NCBI GenBank assembly: GCA_018818165.1
Contig: JAHISP010000016.1
Coordinates: 1-40,884, forward strand
Reading direction: 5' to 3'
DNA: 40,884 nucleotides
DNA from: Bacteroidota bacterium
GTDB lineage: Bacteria > Bacteroidota > Ignavibacteria > Ignavibacteriales > Melioribacteraceae
Made by a program: the position numbers and the translations under genes. The stretch's first letter is position 1. Every line of letters starts with the position of its first letter. Under the pieces are notes generated by a model, which saw only the letters and a program-made list of their open reading frames with translations, was not told the origin of the DNA and did not search any database. Positions 9,842-17,790 of the stretch are shown here, piece after piece.

Positions 9842-11131
9842 ATGCATATGATGAAAATAAATATATTTTTTGGACTTCTTTTATTCATTTTATTTGGTTG
9901 TTCTTCATCCAATGAAAAAAAGGAATATGAACTTCTTTATTGGAGTTCTAATAATTCTCAAGAAATAGAGTTTGCAAAAATGGTTATTAGTAAATGGAAT
10001 GCAATGCACCCAGAAGCAAAAGTTCAATACCAACCAGTTCCAGAAGGACAATCGAGTGAAGAAATTATTTTAGCAGCAGTTGTTGGGCAGACAACACCAG
10101 ATGTTTATTCAAATATGTGGCAGGGTGATGTTGAAATTTATGCAGAGTCTGGCTCGCTTGTGGCTTTAGATACATTAGAAGGATTTGATGAATATATTTA
10201 TGATAGATGCGATACTTCCGTGATGGTTGAAAATACATCGCTTGATAATCACATATACCAAATCCCTTGGAAGATAAATCCTATTTTGATGATTTATAAT
10301 AAAAATCATATTAAAAATCTTGGACTAGATCATGCTCCATCAACTTATGATGAGTATTTTGACGCAGCTGAAAAATTTAAGAAGGATAAAGATGGCGATG
10401 GATATGTTGATCAGTGGTTTGGATATTCTGAGGTACTAGTAACTTGGTGGCAAAGGTTTTTCGATTTTTATCCATTGTATTTGGCTGCTTCTGGCGGACA
10501 ACCTTTAATAAAAAATAACAAAGCTGATTTTGATAATGAATATGCAGTTAACGTATTTAAATTTTTAAGAGAATTATATAAGCAAAAATATTTTCCTCAA
10601 GAACGTTTGGCAGCAAGAGAAGACCCATTTTTGTCTGGTACTATTGTTACTAGGTTTACTGGTCCATGGGAAATATCTCATGCTGAAAAATATAAACCTG
10701 ATGGATTTGAATATGGATTTCAACATATTCCAGTTCCCGCTGGTTTTAAAGGACCAATTTACACATATGGTGATCCTAAAAATATTGTAATATTTAATAC
10801 TTGCAAAAAGCCTAACTTAGCATTTCAGTTTGCTAAGTTCCTTACAAGCAAAAAGAACGATTTTCAATTACTCAAACTTACTTCGCAATATCCAAGAAGA
10901 AAAGATCTTCTTACTGATTCTTTATTTGTGAACTATTTTGAAAAAAATCCAGAACTTAGAGTGTTTGCAGAACAAGCAAAATATGTAAGGGGTACAGATG
11001 CTTCTTCGGTATTAAAGGAAGTTTTTGATATCATTTCACAAGAATATGAAGCTTGTGTAATTTACGGGACAAAAACTCCTGAAGAAGCAATTAAAGATGC
11101 TGCATTTGCAGTTAATTTATTGAACTTATAA
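9842..11131 (+). CDS. Sugar ABC transporter substrate-binding lipoprotein (SBP family 1)
   Basis: 429 residues from ATG 9842. The first 20 residues form a lipoprotein signal with a lipobox ending FGC (Cys20), so the mature protein is membrane-anchored. The body follows the MalE/UgpB-type fold: YELLYWSSNN, EIEFAKMVISKWNAMHP, VVGQTTPDVYSNMWQGD, YQIPWKINPILMIYNKN, GPWEIS, and a helical C-terminus. Start choice: GGGA at 9833-9836 favours ATG 9842, although ATG 9848 and 9851 are in frame and give the same lipobox. A TTG at 9812 is open but would overlap the previous gene without need. It heads the importer with the permeases at 11234 and 12182. The substrate is probably an oligosaccharide, inferred from the GH130 and GH2 enzymes nearby. 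Confidence 0.92.
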   Translation: MHMMKINIFFGLLLFILFGCSSSNEKKEYELLYWSSNNSQEIEFAKMVISKWNAMHPEAKVQYQPVPEGQSSEEIILAAVVGQTTPDVYSNMWQGDVEIYAESGSLVALDTLEGFDEYIYDRCDTSVMVENTSLDNHIYQIPWKINPILMIYNKNHIKNLGLDHAPSTYDEYFDAAEKFKKDKDGDGYVDQWFGYSEVLVTWWQRFFDFYPLYLAASGGQPLIKNNKADFDNEYAVNVFKFLRELYKQKYFPQERLAAREDPFLSGTIVTRFTGPWEISHAEKYKPDGFEYGFQHIPVPAGFKGPIYTYGDPKNIVIFNTCKKPNLAFQFAKFLTSKKNDFQLLKLTSQYPRRKDLLTDSLFVNYFEKNPELRVFAEQAKYVRGTDASSVLKEVFDIISQEYEACVIYGTKTPEEAIKDAAFAVNLLNL

Positions 11132-11150
11132 TTATGAATTATGAATTATG
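11130..11150 (+). repeat. Three tandem copies of AATTATG
   Basis: Three perfect 7-bp units run from the last bases of the binding-protein stop codon to 11150. The third unit overlaps the start of the 89-bp leader element and supplies the ATG of its small open frame. Confidence 0.85.
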
Positions 11151-11233
11151 AAACGAGCAAACAAAATGATTACCAGACTAATAAATGATTATAATTTGAG
11201 TTACATCTGGCAAAAATTAACAATGATAAACAG
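11145..11233 (+). repeat. Leader element copy A, upstream of the first permease
   Basis: This 89-bp stretch aligns without gaps to 12093-12181 with 69 of 89 bases identical. The first 21 bases (ATTATGAAACGAG...) and the last 49 (including GAGTTACATCTGGC) are nearly the same, while the centre differs. Similarity stops at the permease start codon. The copy contains a 29-codon open frame (11148-11237, MKRANK... to ...SYIWQKLT...NR) whose TGA overlaps the permease ATG as ATGA. There is no Shine-Dalgarno before the permease ATG. It may be a cis-acting RNA element, a leader peptide for translational coupling, or a dispersed DNA repeat. Confidence 0.85.
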
Positions 11234-12091
11234 ATGAAAACTAGAAAAATAACCCCATATCTACTTGTAGCACCATATATACTGCACTTCGTTGTATTTG
11301 TAGCGTTTCCTGTTATATTCTCAATTGTTTTAACATTTCATAAATGGAATATAATTTCGCCTATGAAATTTTCTGGTTTAGATAATTATGTTAGACTTTT
11401 TAACGATACTCTGTTTCTAAAATCAATAATGAACACTTTTGTTTTTTTACTTATCCATATTCCTCTTCAAATATTTGTTGCGTTAATATTAGCAGAAATT
11501 CTTAATCAAAAAATATTTATGCGAGGATTTTTTAGAGCCGCTTTCTTTATGCCTGTAGTAGTTTCTGGTGTTGTTGTAACAATGCTTTGGCAACAAATGT
11601 TCGCATTCGATACTGGTTTGCTTAATAGAGTTTTGACCACAATCGGTTTGGATAAAGTTGGCTGGCTTGTTGACCCAGATATTGCAATGTCATCAATTGC
11701 TGTTATGGCAACTTGGAAAAATGTTGGATTATATGTAATACTATTTTTAGTTGGTTTACAAACCGTTCCACCTCACTATTATGAAGCTGCTGATTTAGAA
11801 GGTGCAAACAGATTTCAGAAGTTCTTTTACATAACTCTTCCTATGATTAAACCAACCATGTTTATGGTTATTATTCTTTCTACAATTGGTGGATTTTCAT
11901 TATTTATTGAACCATATATTATGACAGGCGGCGGTCCGCTGAACAGTACTATTTCTGCCGTCCTCTATATTTACAAGCAAGGATTTTTCTATTATCATAT
12001 GGGTTATGCTTCAACACTTGGATTGTTTTTTGCTTTAATAATTTTACTTGTAATTGTAATACAGAAAAAATTTATTGAGAGAGAAAAATAG
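11234..12091 (+). CDS. Sugar ABC transporter permease, MalF/UgpA type
   Basis: 285 residues with six predicted membrane segments. The first begins at about residue 9 (YLLVAPYILHFVVFVAFPVI). The cytoplasmic EAA loop that contacts the ATPase is at residues 184-201 (EAADLEGANRFQKFFYIT), followed by LP and two more helices. It pairs with the MalG-type permease at 12182 and the binding protein at 9842. The start at ATG 11234 has no Shine-Dalgarno and overlaps the stop of a 29-codon frame in the upstream leader element, so initiation may depend on coupling. The cognate ATPase is not adjacent; the best candidate is at 28394. Confidence 0.95.
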   Translation: MKTRKITPYLLVAPYILHFVVFVAFPVIFSIVLTFHKWNIISPMKFSGLDNYVRLFNDTLFLKSIMNTFVFLLIHIPLQIFVALILAEILNQKIFMRGFFRAAFFMPVVVSGVVVTMLWQQMFAFDTGLLNRVLTTIGLDKVGWLVDPDIAMSSIAVMATWKNVGLYVILFLVGLQTVPPHYYEAADLEGANRFQKFFYITLPMIKPTMFMVIILSTIGGFSLFIEPYIMTGGGPLNSTISAVLYIYKQGFFYYHMGYASTLGLFFALIILLVIVIQKKFIEREK

Positions 12092-12092
12092 T

Positions 12093-12181
12093 ATTATGAA
12101 ACGAGTAAGCAAAGATTTTTATTCACAAGCTAATGATTGTAATGCGAGTTACATCTGGCAAAAATTAACTATTATAAACAG
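12093..12181 (+). repeat. Leader element copy B, upstream of the second permease
   Basis: Second copy of the 89-bp element, filling the whole gap between the two permease genes apart from one base. It too carries a 29-codon frame (12096-12185, MKRVSKD... to ...SYIWQKLTIINR) ending in an ATGA overlap with the next gene. Of the 20 differences from copy A, only 5 fall in third codon positions of this frame, so the comparison does not show protein-level conservation. Confidence 0.85.
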
Positions 12182-12991
12182 ATGAAAAAACTAATATTTT
12201 ATACCGTACTTTTATTTGCAGCACTCTCATTCATTTATCCTTTTATTTGGATGATAAGTGCATCACTTGCTCCTGAAAGTGAAATAGGAAGTTTGGTGCT
12301 ATTTCCAAACACTTTTACTTTGGATAGTTATACTCAAATGTTTTCAAAAATTCCTATTGGAAGGGCATTGTTCAATAGCATTTTGGTTTCTACATTAGTT
12401 ACTATCGGAGTTTTAGTATTTGGTTCAATGGTTGGGTATGCGCTTTCAAAATTGGAATTTAAGGGAAGGGAATTAATATTTTACGTTATAATTTTTACAA
12501 TGACACTTCCATTTCAGATTACTTTAATTCCACAATATATTTTAATGGTCAAATTTGGATGGGTTGATACCTACGCTGCGTTAATTGTGCCATATCTTAT
12601 GAACGCTTTGGCAATAATTATGTTTAGGCAGTATTTCAAAAGTATTCCTACTGATTTGCTAGATGCAGCTAGAATTGATGGATGTGGGGAACTTAGAATA
12701 CTTTTTACTATACTTTGGCCAAACGCATTGCCAGCAATTGTTACAATTGGAATATTGACATTTATGGCATCTTGGAATGAAGTTTTATGGCCATTAATTG
12801 TAATACGTGATGAAAGTTTAATGACAATGCCACAACTTGTTACATTATTTGCAGTGGGTGGAAGAGCAGATGCACAATTAGGTGTAAAACTTGCCTCTGC
12901 TATTTTACTAGCACTTCCAATAATGATTGCGTACCTATTTTTTCAAAAATACTTTATACAAAGTATGGCTTCAACAGGACTTAAAGAATAG
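12182..12991 (+). CDS. Sugar ABC transporter permease, MalG/UgpE type
   Basis: 269 residues with six predicted membrane helices and the inner-membrane EAA loop at residues 161-181 (DAARIDGCGE, then FTILWPNALP). The opening (FYTVLLFAALSFIYPFIWMISASLAPESEI) is typical of the MalG half of family 1 sugar importers. ATG 12182 directly follows leader element B, with the same ATGA overlap and no Shine-Dalgarno, as for the first permease. With the binding protein and first permease it makes the membrane part of one importer. Confidence 0.95.
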   Translation: MKKLIFYTVLLFAALSFIYPFIWMISASLAPESEIGSLVLFPNTFTLDSYTQMFSKIPIGRALFNSILVSTLVTIGVLVFGSMVGYALSKLEFKGRELIFYVIIFTMTLPFQITLIPQYILMVKFGWVDTYAALIVPYLMNALAIIMFRQYFKSIPTDLLDAARIDGCGELRILFTILWPNALPAIVTIGILTFMASWNEVLWPLIVIRDESLMTMPQLVTLFAVGGRADAQLGVKLASAILLALPIMIAYLFFQKYFIQSMASTGLKE

Positions 12992-15418: not shown

Positions 15419-16853
15419 AACAGAGGTAGTAATTAAACCTGATTATAAAAGAGTTCTCTACAGACCTTTTACAATTACGTCTGAAGAAAGAATAACAAGA
15501 ATTATTGGAAGAATCCTAACTCTTTCTGAAAAGGAAGTTAATAAAGAACTTAAGCAGGTTATGACAGATTTTGAAGAACGGCATCAAAGACTATGGAACT
15601 TTTATCTTAATAGATTTGAGCAGATGAAAAAGTATTTGCTAACTGACCAGCCTTTAAGTGATGAGAGAAAATTTTTAATCGGAGCTTATTTTACACAAGA
15701 ATATTCATTAGAATCGGCTGCACTTTTTAATCCTTCAATGATTTGGCATCCAGATCAATCAAATCTTGCAGAGGGAAGTCGCCGTTTTATTTTAAGCTTA
15801 AGGGCAACAGGTGAGGGACATATTTCATCAATAACTTTTAGGACAGGAGTTATTGATAATGAAAATAATATTAATATTGATATTCCTAGTAGATATGTAA
15901 CTACCTCTGAAAATATTTCAAATCAGATTTTTGAAAAAGCTCTTTTTGAAAAAAAGTTAATTGAACTTGATTTGTTAAATGATTTTGCTCAAAAAGTTAT
16001 TGACAGCTTGGATGAAAATTTTACTTTTGTTGATCTTGAAGAGACCATAAAAATATTATTGCGTACTTATAGAAACAAAGGTGTAGAGAATGAGTTGACT
16101 TCAAAAGCGGTTTTCTCATTAGCACTTTCAAATTATGAAATTCAATACAATTCTGATCAAAGACTCTCTGAACGGGTAATATTTCCTCATTCACCTTCCG
16201 AAATGAATGGAATTGAGGATGCTCGTTTTGTAGAATTTATTGATGAAAATGGACATAAAACTTATTACGCAACTTATACAGCATATGATGGCAAAGTCAT
16301 TTTTCCACAACTTCTTGAGACTAAAGATTTTTTAAATTTTAAGATAAATACATTAAATGGTCCTGAAGTAAAGAATAAAGGAATGGCACTTTTTCCAAGG
16401 AAAATTAACGGACTTTACGCAATGATCTCAAGGCAGGATGGTGAAAATATTTATTTAATGTACTCTGAGCATCTTCATTTCTGGTATACAAAACAGATAA
16501 TTCTAAAACCAACTTATCCATGGGAATTTGTGCAACTGGGTAATTGTGGATCTCCAATAGAAACTGAAGCTGGCTGGTTAGTATTAAGTCATGGTGTTGG
16601 AGCAATGCGTGAATATTCAATGGGTGCATTTTTATTAGATAAAGATGATCCATCTAAAGTTATTGGTAGATTAAAGGAGCCTTTGCTTACGCCAAATGAA
16701 AACGAAAGAGAGGGATATGTCCCTAATGTGGTTTATAGTTGTGGTGGTGCTATCCATGATGATGAACTTATTATCCCTTATGCTATGTCAGATCATGCAA
16801 GCAGCATTGCAAAGGTGAATGTTAAAGAATTAATTGACGAAATGATAAAATGA
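15405..16853 (+). CDS. GH130 family protein, long form (beta-mannoside phosphorylase candidate)
   Basis: 482 residues, cytoplasmic, with ATG inside the end of the previous gene. The five-bladed propeller of GH130 is recognisable: FNPSMIWHPDQSN, RRFILSLRATGEGHISSITFRTG, NGIEDARFVEF (Asp272 is the likely proton donor), KGMALFPRKINGLYAMISRQDGEN, GNCGSPIETEAGWLVLSHGVGAMREYSMGAFLLD-type sequence and YSCGGAI near the end. About 90 N-terminal residues and a helical insertion at 165-235 make it longer than the usual 300-350. GH130 enzymes cleave beta-mannosides, mostly by phosphorolysis giving mannose 1-phosphate. Thermoanaerobacter carries a pair acting on beta-1,2-mannosides of different chain length, a plausible parallel to this gene and the next. 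The linkage here is not established. Confidence 0.87.
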   Translation: MKVIRTEVVIKPDYKRVLYRPFTITSEERITRIIGRILTLSEKEVNKELKQVMTDFEERHQRLWNFYLNRFEQMKKYLLTDQPLSDERKFLIGAYFTQEYSLESAALFNPSMIWHPDQSNLAEGSRRFILSLRATGEGHISSITFRTGVIDNENNINIDIPSRYVTTSENISNQIFEKALFEKKLIELDLLNDFAQKVIDSLDENFTFVDLEETIKILLRTYRNKGVENELTSKAVFSLALSNYEIQYNSDQRLSERVIFPHSPSEMNGIEDARFVEFIDENGHKTYYATYTAYDGKVIFPQLLETKDFLNFKINTLNGPEVKNKGMALFPRKINGLYAMISRQDGENIYLMYSEHLHFWYTKQIILKPTYPWEFVQLGNCGSPIETEAGWLVLSHGVGAMREYSMGAFLLDKDDPSKVIGRLKEPLLTPNENEREGYVPNVVYSCGGAIHDDELIIPYAMSDHASSIAKVNVKELIDEMIK

Positions 16854-16874
16854 TAAAATGATAAAATGAAAAAA
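16843..16874 (+). repeat. Tandem TGATAAAA repeat across a stop codon
   Basis: Three perfect 8-bp units (16843-16866) and a fourth degenerate one follow each other. The stop codon of the long GH130 gene (16851-16853) is the first TGA of the second unit. Loss or gain of later units would leave the protein unchanged. Confidence 0.8.
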
Positions 16875-16887
16875 TAATATAGGCGAT

Positions 16888-17790
16888 ATGAAAATGATTA
16901 GATATGAAAATAATCCTGTTCTTGTAAAAGAAGATGTCCCATTCAAGGTGAATAGTATTTTTAATCCTGGGGCTATTAAGTATAATGATGAATATTTATT
17001 AATGTGCAGAGTAGAAATGCCAATCGGAAGATCTTCATTTCTCATTGCCCGAAGCAAAGATGGTTTTAGTTTTAAGTTGGATACTAAACCAATTTTAACT
17101 CCCGAAGATCACAAGGACTGCTATGAGTATGTTAATTGGGGTATTGAAGATGCTAGGATAACTAGCATTGATAATAAATATTATTTAACGTATACCGGAT
17201 ATTCAAAATATAAACCTGTTGTAATTTTGGCAGAAACCGAAAATTTTAAAACATTTAAAATTCACGGACCTATTTCTGAAGCTTCGAACAAAGATTGTTC
17301 TATATTTCCAGAAAAAATAGATGGATATTATTGGAAGGTAGATAGACCTGAAGCTGAAGAACGTAGGGATATCTGGATAAGTAAGAGTCCAGATTTAATT
17401 CATTGGGGTGGATATTCTGTTTTAATGGAGCCTGAAAAAGGTACATGGGAAGATAACAAAATTGGTGCCTCTACACCTCCTATAAAAACGAAAGATGGAT
17501 GGTTAATGTTATATCATGGTGTAAGGGGATTTGGCATATCATCTTTGTACAAACTCGGAGTTGTTTTGCTTGATTTGAATAATCCAAGAATTGTAAAAGG
17601 TAAAAGCAGAGAACCAATACTTTCTCCTGAAATGGATTATGAACGAATTGGAGATGTAGGAAATGTTGTATTCTCTAATGGTTGGATTAAGGAAGATAAT
17701 GATGATCTTAAAATTTACTACTCGGGTGCTGATATGAATGTTTGCGTTGCAGAGACTTCCATTGATCAACTTGTTGCATTATGTAAATAA
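16888..17790 (+). CDS. GH130 family protein, short form (beta-mannoside phosphorylase candidate)
   Basis: 300 residues, a single compact GH130 propeller without signal peptide. Key stretches are NPVLVKEDVPFKVNSIFNPG, LLMCRVEMPIGRSSFLIARS, WGIEDARITSIDNKYYLTYT (Asp88 as probable proton donor), DCSIFPEKIDGYYWKVDRPE, GASTPPIKTKDGWLMLYHGV and GDVGNVVFSNG. The basic residues and the His in LYHGV sit where GH130 phosphorylases bind phosphate, which favours phosphorylase over hydrolase activity (known of the family, not proven here). It starts 34 bases after the long GH130 gene, separated by the tandem 8-bp repeat. The two paralogues are well diverged, which fits division of labour by chain length. 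Confidence 0.9.
   Translation: MKMIRYENNPVLVKEDVPFKVNSIFNPGAIKYNDEYLLMCRVEMPIGRSSFLIARSKDGFSFKLDTKPILTPEDHKDCYEYVNWGIEDARITSIDNKYYLTYTGYSKYKPVVILAETENFKTFKIHGPISEASNKDCSIFPEKIDGYYWKVDRPEAEERRDIWISKSPDLIHWGGYSVLMEPEKGTWEDNKIGASTPPIKTKDGWLMLYHGVRGFGISSLYKLGVVLLDLNNPRIVKGKSREPILSPEMDYERIGDVGNVVFSNGWIKEDNDDLKIYYSGADMNVCVAETSIDQLVALCK

Follow-up and report, generated by a model that had tools for sequence, protein, structure and literature searches.

Why do the two permease genes of one importer each begin behind nearly the same leader? In the window (the whole stretch of DNA analysed, 40,884 nucleotides of contig JAHISP010000016.1), positions 11145-11233 and 12093-12181 align without gaps and are identical at 69 of 89 positions, as an earlier note on this DNA had claimed. 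The next best match among the 231 pairs of 89-bp leaders from the window's 22 gene starts is 44/89, and a 24-mer common to both leaders was matched twice in the window and never in 100 shuffles. Translation confirmed the two frames of 29 codons (MKR...SYIWQKLT...), in each of which the TGA overlaps the permease ATG, and each leader runs up to the start codon of a gene that encodes a BPD_transp_1 match. The 20 differences split 6/9/5 over codon positions 1/2/3, so that third positions are indeed not enriched. No Shine-Dalgarno was seen directly 5' of the malF-like or the malG-like permease; this point of the earlier note also holds, but the malF gene of the sister genome GH35, which has no leader, likewise shows none.

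The sister genome provides the empty sites. Both inserts are present in genomes G000 and G001, and both are absent from GH35 (JAQICK010000040.1), the MalF of which is 96% identical. GH35 malF reads aattagaaattATGAAGACTAG and GH35 malG reads aaaaatgattttATGAAAAGATTAG, while G001 at the compared site reads ...aaattATGAA-element-ATGAAAACTAG. This supports copying of the leaders far more recently than the genes, one of the possibilities that the earlier note had raised. Another, homogenisation, has not operated since G000 and G001 split: orthologous leaders show 6 and 4 differences over 86 positions, against 20/86 in each genome for paralogous ones (malF versus malG). The two window copies cluster in the tree (support 0.85), yet they are only 78% identical; one may be a descendant of the other, or the two may share a source. 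GH35, taken as one genome with G003 (all 14 GH35 places share contig numbers and coordinates with G003), carries the element at other places.

Orthologues were inspected for 14 further insertions, plus 7 groups in a later comparison. The flanks could be traced through the junction in at least one relative for the DHFR, glycosyltransferase, FliJ, XerC/D, EamA, L034, PorV-like and TonB-receptor genes, and for the remaining insertions the comparison was limited to the gene start. In the RND and Ni-SOD groups a filled orthologue was the sole kind seen, and the CheB insertion appears decayed and common to the genomes compared. The leaders belong to a dispersed family with clean empty sites, and very probably a single structured, non-autonomous miniature mobile element gave rise to both by insertion.

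The unit proposed in the earlier note, 89 bp ending at the start codons, stands as a match but not in its limits. The element is most likely shifted to the right, with the present ATG inside it, and the ATGA on its left is most likely the old start codon of each gene (Table 1).

Table 1. Features of the two insertions and of the importer genes around them (window positions).
Feature	Position	Strand	Evidence
Target ATGA, probable former malF start, now leader-frame start	11148..11151	+	GH35 empty site ...aattagaaattATGAAGACTAG; polarity as at the TonB receptor
Mobile element copy 1 (86 bp), most likely limits; ends CAGATGA and provides the present malF start	11152..11237	+	Repeat family in own genome and genus; absent from GH35
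Leader frame 1, 29 codons; TGA 11235-11237 overlaps malF ATG	11148..11237	+	Translation; intact in G001
Stem C of copy 1: CATCTG 11204-11209 with CAGATG 11231-11236, malF ATG included	11204..11236	+	Covarying pair across copies; present in this copy's predicted fold
malF-like permease	11234..12091	+	ORF, BPD_transp_1
Target ATGA, probable former malG start	12096..12099	+	GH35 empty site ...gggaaaaatgattttATGAAAAGATTAG
Mobile element copy 2 (86 bp), most likely limits; provides the present malG start	12100..12185	+	Repeat family in own genome and genus; absent from GH35
Leader frame 2, 29 codons; TGA 12183-12185 overlaps malG ATG	12096..12185	+	Translation
Stem C of copy 2: CATCTG 12152-12157 with CAGATG 12179-12184	12152..12184	+	Covariation across copies; fold of this copy
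malG-like permease	12182..12991	+	ORF, BPD_transp_1
Solute-binding protein 5' of the permeases, probably same importer, outside the element	9848..11131	+	SBP_bac_8/SBP_bac_1

The earlier note had suggested looking for the element in the own and related genomes. With the 89-bp query, every one of five genus genomes had at least 2 places at E≤0.01, and the own genome had 4. With a sequence-only model built from 16 copies (150 candidates scored per genome), these five genomes gave 7, 14, 11, 13 and 11 matches at E≤1e-3. The element is multi-copy in 5/5 genus genomes, and it also precedes unrelated genes. Across the family, 44 of 79 genomes have a match at E≤0.1, mostly weak, and six family genomes outside the genus have a best E below 1e-5; in a class-wide sample searched with stricter filters, 11/391 genomes have a match at E≤1e-4. 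Among these 11 are three genomes of a second genus, in which 67, 34 and 12 matches (counting partial matches) reach E≤1e-3; some of these copies are almost identical to one another. The named relatives of the window are Ignavibacteriales and Melioribacteraceae MAGs. No Rfam match up to E 1 was obtained for window positions 11000-12300, and no similar DNA was found in phage and plasmid records. The leaders are very probably two copies of a structured mobile element of Ignavibacteria, roughly 86 bp long and apparently undescribed; no report of such an element, or of start-codon landing in Ignavibacteria, was found among titles and abstract openings outside subscription journals and preprints.

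Matches were called full-length when they ran from model position ≤4 to ≥87, which holds for 50/73 matches in the window's genus and family. L005, L006 and L008 were dropped as short chance matches, the L007 copy (= L056) was excluded from the model alignment and included in counts, and the weak family matches L063-L081 were excluded from the context analysis. Counts given as independent omit the five G001 copies that have an orthologous insertion in G000 (L049 twice, L030, L083, L053), a correction that covers the G000/G001 pair only. In the second genus 80 full copies were classed, among them L354, an edge duplicate of L312.

Copies were assigned to start codons, intergenic DNA or coding sequence by our own ORF rule, not by annotation. 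The 50 full copies of the window's genus and family comprise 36 at start codons, 12 intergenic and 2 coding; without the G001 orthologues, the 45 that are left comprise 31, 12 and 2. Control ATGAA sites from the window and the Y1 loci fell into the same classes at 27, 94 and 357, and those of the window alone at 17, 20 and 196. The excess at starts gives P 1.5e-8 against all controls and is mild when non-coding sites are compared with the window-only control (31/43 versus 17/37, P 0.02). In the second genus the 80 full copies comprise 35 at starts, 42 intergenic and 3 coding, against 97, 226 and 911 control sites, and at non-coding sites the excess is mild (35/77 versus 97/323, P 0.015). The specificity is thus for the short sequence; the excess at starts is modest in the second genus, and selection after insertion is a sufficient cause of the larger excess in the window's genus. 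By the ORF rule, copies of the coding class are rare in both sets (2/50 and 3/80). The dispersed repeat considered in the earlier note is thus dispersed as proposed but not scattered at random, since copies sit at NTGA|A and 31/45 independent full copies lie on a start codon.

In both genera copies lie 3' of NTGA, usually with A next, and have CAGATGA as their right end. The start codons hit are ATGAA, GTGAA and TTGAA; the old start is kept on the left and an in-register ATG stands on the right. The gene of a TonB receptor is filled in G000 and G001, with GTGAA on the left and ATGAA on the right, and empty, with a GTG start, in G002, G003 and G004. This gene is most simply read as having its old start in the left NTGA, with the right ATGA belonging to the element as its end. 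A patatin gene (L102), with GTGA on the left and ATGA-T on the right and with an empty relative that reads GGGAT, fits the same polarity less certainly. Counts over many copies bear weakly on the polarity. Among 64 better-preserved copies (20 from the window's genus and family, 44 from the second genus), 60 have ATGA as their right end; A is the first base in 58/64 on the left and 63/64 on the right, a difference that is not significant (P 0.11), and most copies have ATGAA on both sides. From one clear gene and one weaker, the assignment of the left NTGA to the target and of the right ATGA to the element is well supported, and it follows that nothing would be duplicated on insertion. A duplicated copy might later have changed from GTG to ATG, but the TonB-receptor pattern speaks for an IS200/IS605-like insertion that leaves the target unduplicated. 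In alignments of copies no terminal inverted repeats were seen by eye (left end A(A/C)CGAGC, right end AAACAGATGA).

Target base -1 is associated with guide base 60 in both genera (C with T, A or G with G; P 0.0004). The pairs are not Watson-Crick, and a Watson-Crick pairing rule between the two bases was rejected; tandem insertions may be the cause of the association.

Copies range from about 66 to about 300 nt, with conserved stems and changeable capping hairpins. Stem C (CATCTG with CAGATG) takes in the right-hand ATG, an internal CAT being paired with the element's own ATG and covariation lying in the neighbouring pair; the varying pair of this stem is C-G in 63, A-T in 16 and G-C in 10 of 106 distinct rows. 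In an alignment built with a structure-free model, but with stems picked from the same sequences, 92.5% of the cells of stems A and C pair, versus 88.7% in shuffles, controls that ignore kinship, and at most 35.5% in slid controls. Changes on both sides of these stems affect 34 cells versus 9.4 ± 2.4 in shuffles, relatedness of the copies being ignored. The single-copy folding energies of the two window copies are unremarkable (z -0.93 and +0.25).

The fate of the leader frame was followed in 39 copies at starts in the window's genus and family: the 36 full ones together with L051, L061 and L095, which were added by hand and all stop early. Fifteen frames (12 independent) are fused to the host gene, 16 (14 independent) stop no more than 30 nt from the new ATG, and 8 stop early. 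Early stops are found in 9/12 intergenic copies (P 0.001 versus start copies, 0.004 without G001 orthologues), and age may account for part of this because intergenic copies are on average more decayed. All 12 independent fused genes look exported, versus 2/14 of those with a stop near the start (P 1e-5); export was called from a hydrophobicity heuristic judged by eye and from Pfam (22 of the 26 independent genes of the two classes scanned, 20 with a match), and the histidine kinase L016, whose N-terminus has a membrane segment, was scored as not exported. Three of the 8 early-stop genes (L046, L061, L102) look exported too. The fused hosts encode an HlyD-type fusion protein, M23, two PorV-like proteins, Ni-SOD, a TonB receptor, DUF1573, S41, NAGPA, a 3-keto-disaccharide hydrolase, DUF4252 and one protein without a Pfam match. 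Host genes with a stop near the start encode for the most part cytosolic and membrane proteins, among them CheB, FliJ, XerC/D, a sigma factor, a glycosyltransferase, two histidine kinases and the two permeases of the window. The NAGPA gene and the Ni-SOD genes of G000 and G001 have lost the right-hand ATG although their frames are fused, which points to upstream initiation. A ribosome-binding motif precedes the left start in 11/39 copies and the right start in 2/39.

In the second genus the usual left part, ATG AAA CGA GCA TGA (MKRA*), stops at codon 5, and the 35 start leaders comprise 28 with an early stop, 5 with a stop near the ATG and 2 fused ones; initiation straight at the new ATG is probably feasible there. 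Because most of these leaders stop after a few codons, the leader peptide is not general, and coupled re-initiation at malF and malG, which we infer, is plausible rather than established. The five orthologous leader pairs differ at 31/433 sites versus about 230/792 synonymous sites of their genes (window pair, 10/172 versus 68/368, P 6e-5), and within the pooled leaders synonymous and non-synonymous sites change alike (8/72 versus 23/342, P 0.22). Since leaders change less than synonymous sites and show no synonymous preference, the nucleotides (stems, frame length) seem to be constrained rather than the peptide. A conserved leader peptide, which the earlier note had found unsupported by the window pair alone, is supported neither by these counts nor by the codon-5 stop of the second genus.

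The following course of events would be consistent with these observations. A copy would land on a start codon, the old start and any ribosome-binding site before it would remain on the left, and the right end would present an in-register ATG; host genes would probably keep working because the element offers this replacement start. At malF and malG the old start would be read as the start of the 29-codon leader, with its TGA overlapping the new permease ATG, and each permease would be made via termination-reinitiation, which stem C, where the new ATG is paired, may enforce. In exported hosts an in-frame version (mostly 87 nt) would be read through and add a tail before the signal peptide. Less firmly, movement might proceed by a single-strand mechanism like that of IS200/IS605, the internal CAT serving as guide to the target TG as well as to the ATG of the element itself, and a separate enzyme acting in trans. 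We tentatively suggest, at somewhat less than even chance, that target recognition by the internal CAT makes start codons natural landing sites, and that its own start and a frame-adjustable leader let the element insert between ribosome-binding site and coding sequence without silencing, as a disposable tail before signal peptides and as a re-initiation leader elsewhere. An insertion at a start codon is normally expected to harm translation, and the element appears to make it tolerable, with two outcomes that track protein export. It offers a natural test of the tolerance of re-initiation, of leader structure and of tails before signal peptides, accounts for the N-terminal extensions of 29 residues that open frames of these bacteria show, and implies that a mobilising enzyme is yet to be found.

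Other readings have to be weighed against this one. An ordinary MITE-like DNA transposon that makes a 5-bp ATGAA duplication, and hits starts since ATGAA is a very common gene start, would agree with the ATGAA at both ends of most copies, with the merely mild start enrichment in the second genus and with left and right first bases that do not differ significantly in well-preserved copies. We regard it as rather unlikely, as no terminal inverted repeat is visible by eye, the TonB receptor and, less surely, the patatin gene keep the target base on the left but have A on the right, and the right ATG is paired by stem C inside the element. Conserved stems with changeable capping hairpins over the observed range of sizes, together with directional ends, could also suggest a mobile RNA, guided internally by the CAT and inserted through reverse splicing or retrotransposition. 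Known self-splicing introns are far larger than this element, however, and the window copies have no Rfam match, which leaves this reading a slim chance. Slimmer still is that of a regulatory leader selected to balance MalF and MalG and spread by gene conversion. The window-pair leaders are indeed more constrained than synonymous sites and stem C holds the start codon, but the close sister lacks both copies and has intact gene starts, and the greater distance between paralogous than orthologous leaders means that there was no recent conversion. The idea in the earlier note that the leader matches the expression of two subunits is unneeded because the element precedes unrelated genes too.

The preferred reading, a non-autonomous mobile element, raises the matter of the enzyme. 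A Y1 transposase (PF01797) as carrier was rejected: none of the 47 Y1 loci scanned (21 in five genomes of the window's genus, 26 in three of the second) is bounded by element ends. At L409 and L427 an element copy is merely near a Y1 locus, and G001 has many copies, yet only one Y1 match. A search for a longer, autonomous copy turned up versions of about 150 to 300 bp (L116, L118, L387, L392, L316); frames were listed for three of them, and the longest that start inside the element have 63 and 66 codons.

Compared with known systems, the element resembles a classical MITE in being small, non-autonomous and multi-copy with empty sites, but no terminal inverted repeats are visible by eye. As to target duplication the signs are mixed: ATGAA stands on both sides of most copies, and the TonB receptor has its ancestral GTG on the left only. 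IS200/IS605 elements insert 3' of a short target without duplication and with guide pairing, and REPINs have structured ends. A probable likeness to IS200/IS605 derivatives would lie in insertion 3' of a short target, which the TonB receptor and, more weakly, the patatin gene support; the difference from these and from REPINs is that none of the 47 loci holds a Y1 transposase with matching ends. According to the available sections of PMC2775950, IS605 ends form stem loops. Rickettsia palindromic elements, as portrayed in the accessible parts of PMC10969869 and PMC2229807, are likewise small (about 100-150 bp) and multi-copy, with an open frame fused in frame to genes, but they have terminal inverted repeats and often lie inside genes. 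The present element sits at start codons or between genes and gives an ATG, and a second class of copies stops at the new ATG; in-frame insertion within coding sequence, as in the Rickettsia elements, is not its pattern by the ORF rule, given the few full copies classed as coding, and L101 is one weak in-frame candidate. ERIC, YPAL/RU-2 and Correia/NEMIS are also small and non-autonomous, with frames fused to host frames and one in a predicted signal peptide; in the sections of PMC2229807 at hand they differ by mostly TA termini, duplications and inverted repeats, and landing on a start codon or supplying a start is not described there. For overlapping ATGA gene pairs, 13/14 tested were strictly coupled by termination-reinitiation (available sections of PMC6728339); the stop/start overlap is alike, but the upstream frame here comes from a mobile element.

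Several minor observations concern the copies themselves. The weak match at L101 (G003:C135, 1501-1586) lies in frame within a 901-codon frame and could be an insertion inside a gene, or chance. Tandem or nearby copies occur at L119/L019 (G004:C94), L087, L332, L343 and L364, several with one element at the ATGAA end of another. Versions of about 66 nt in the second genus (L375, L391, L394, L390, L374, L401 and others) read ATGAAACGAG, a TCCCGA...TCGGGA hairpin and CGAGTTCCAT..., and their capping hairpin appears exchangeable. L052, L085, L353 and L386 carry an extra hairpin of the type TTCCGAAGGAATGCCTTCGGCA inserted between their stems; it may represent a second family of small repeats. Two short tandem repeats were seen in the window. 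At 11130-11150, just left of copy 1, AATTATG stands three times in tandem and adds further ATGAA sites upstream of the element, where G001 has AATTAGAAATTATG; at 16826-16882 an 8-bp unit (ATGATAAA) is repeated in tandem over the end of one gene, up to just before the gene start at 16888.
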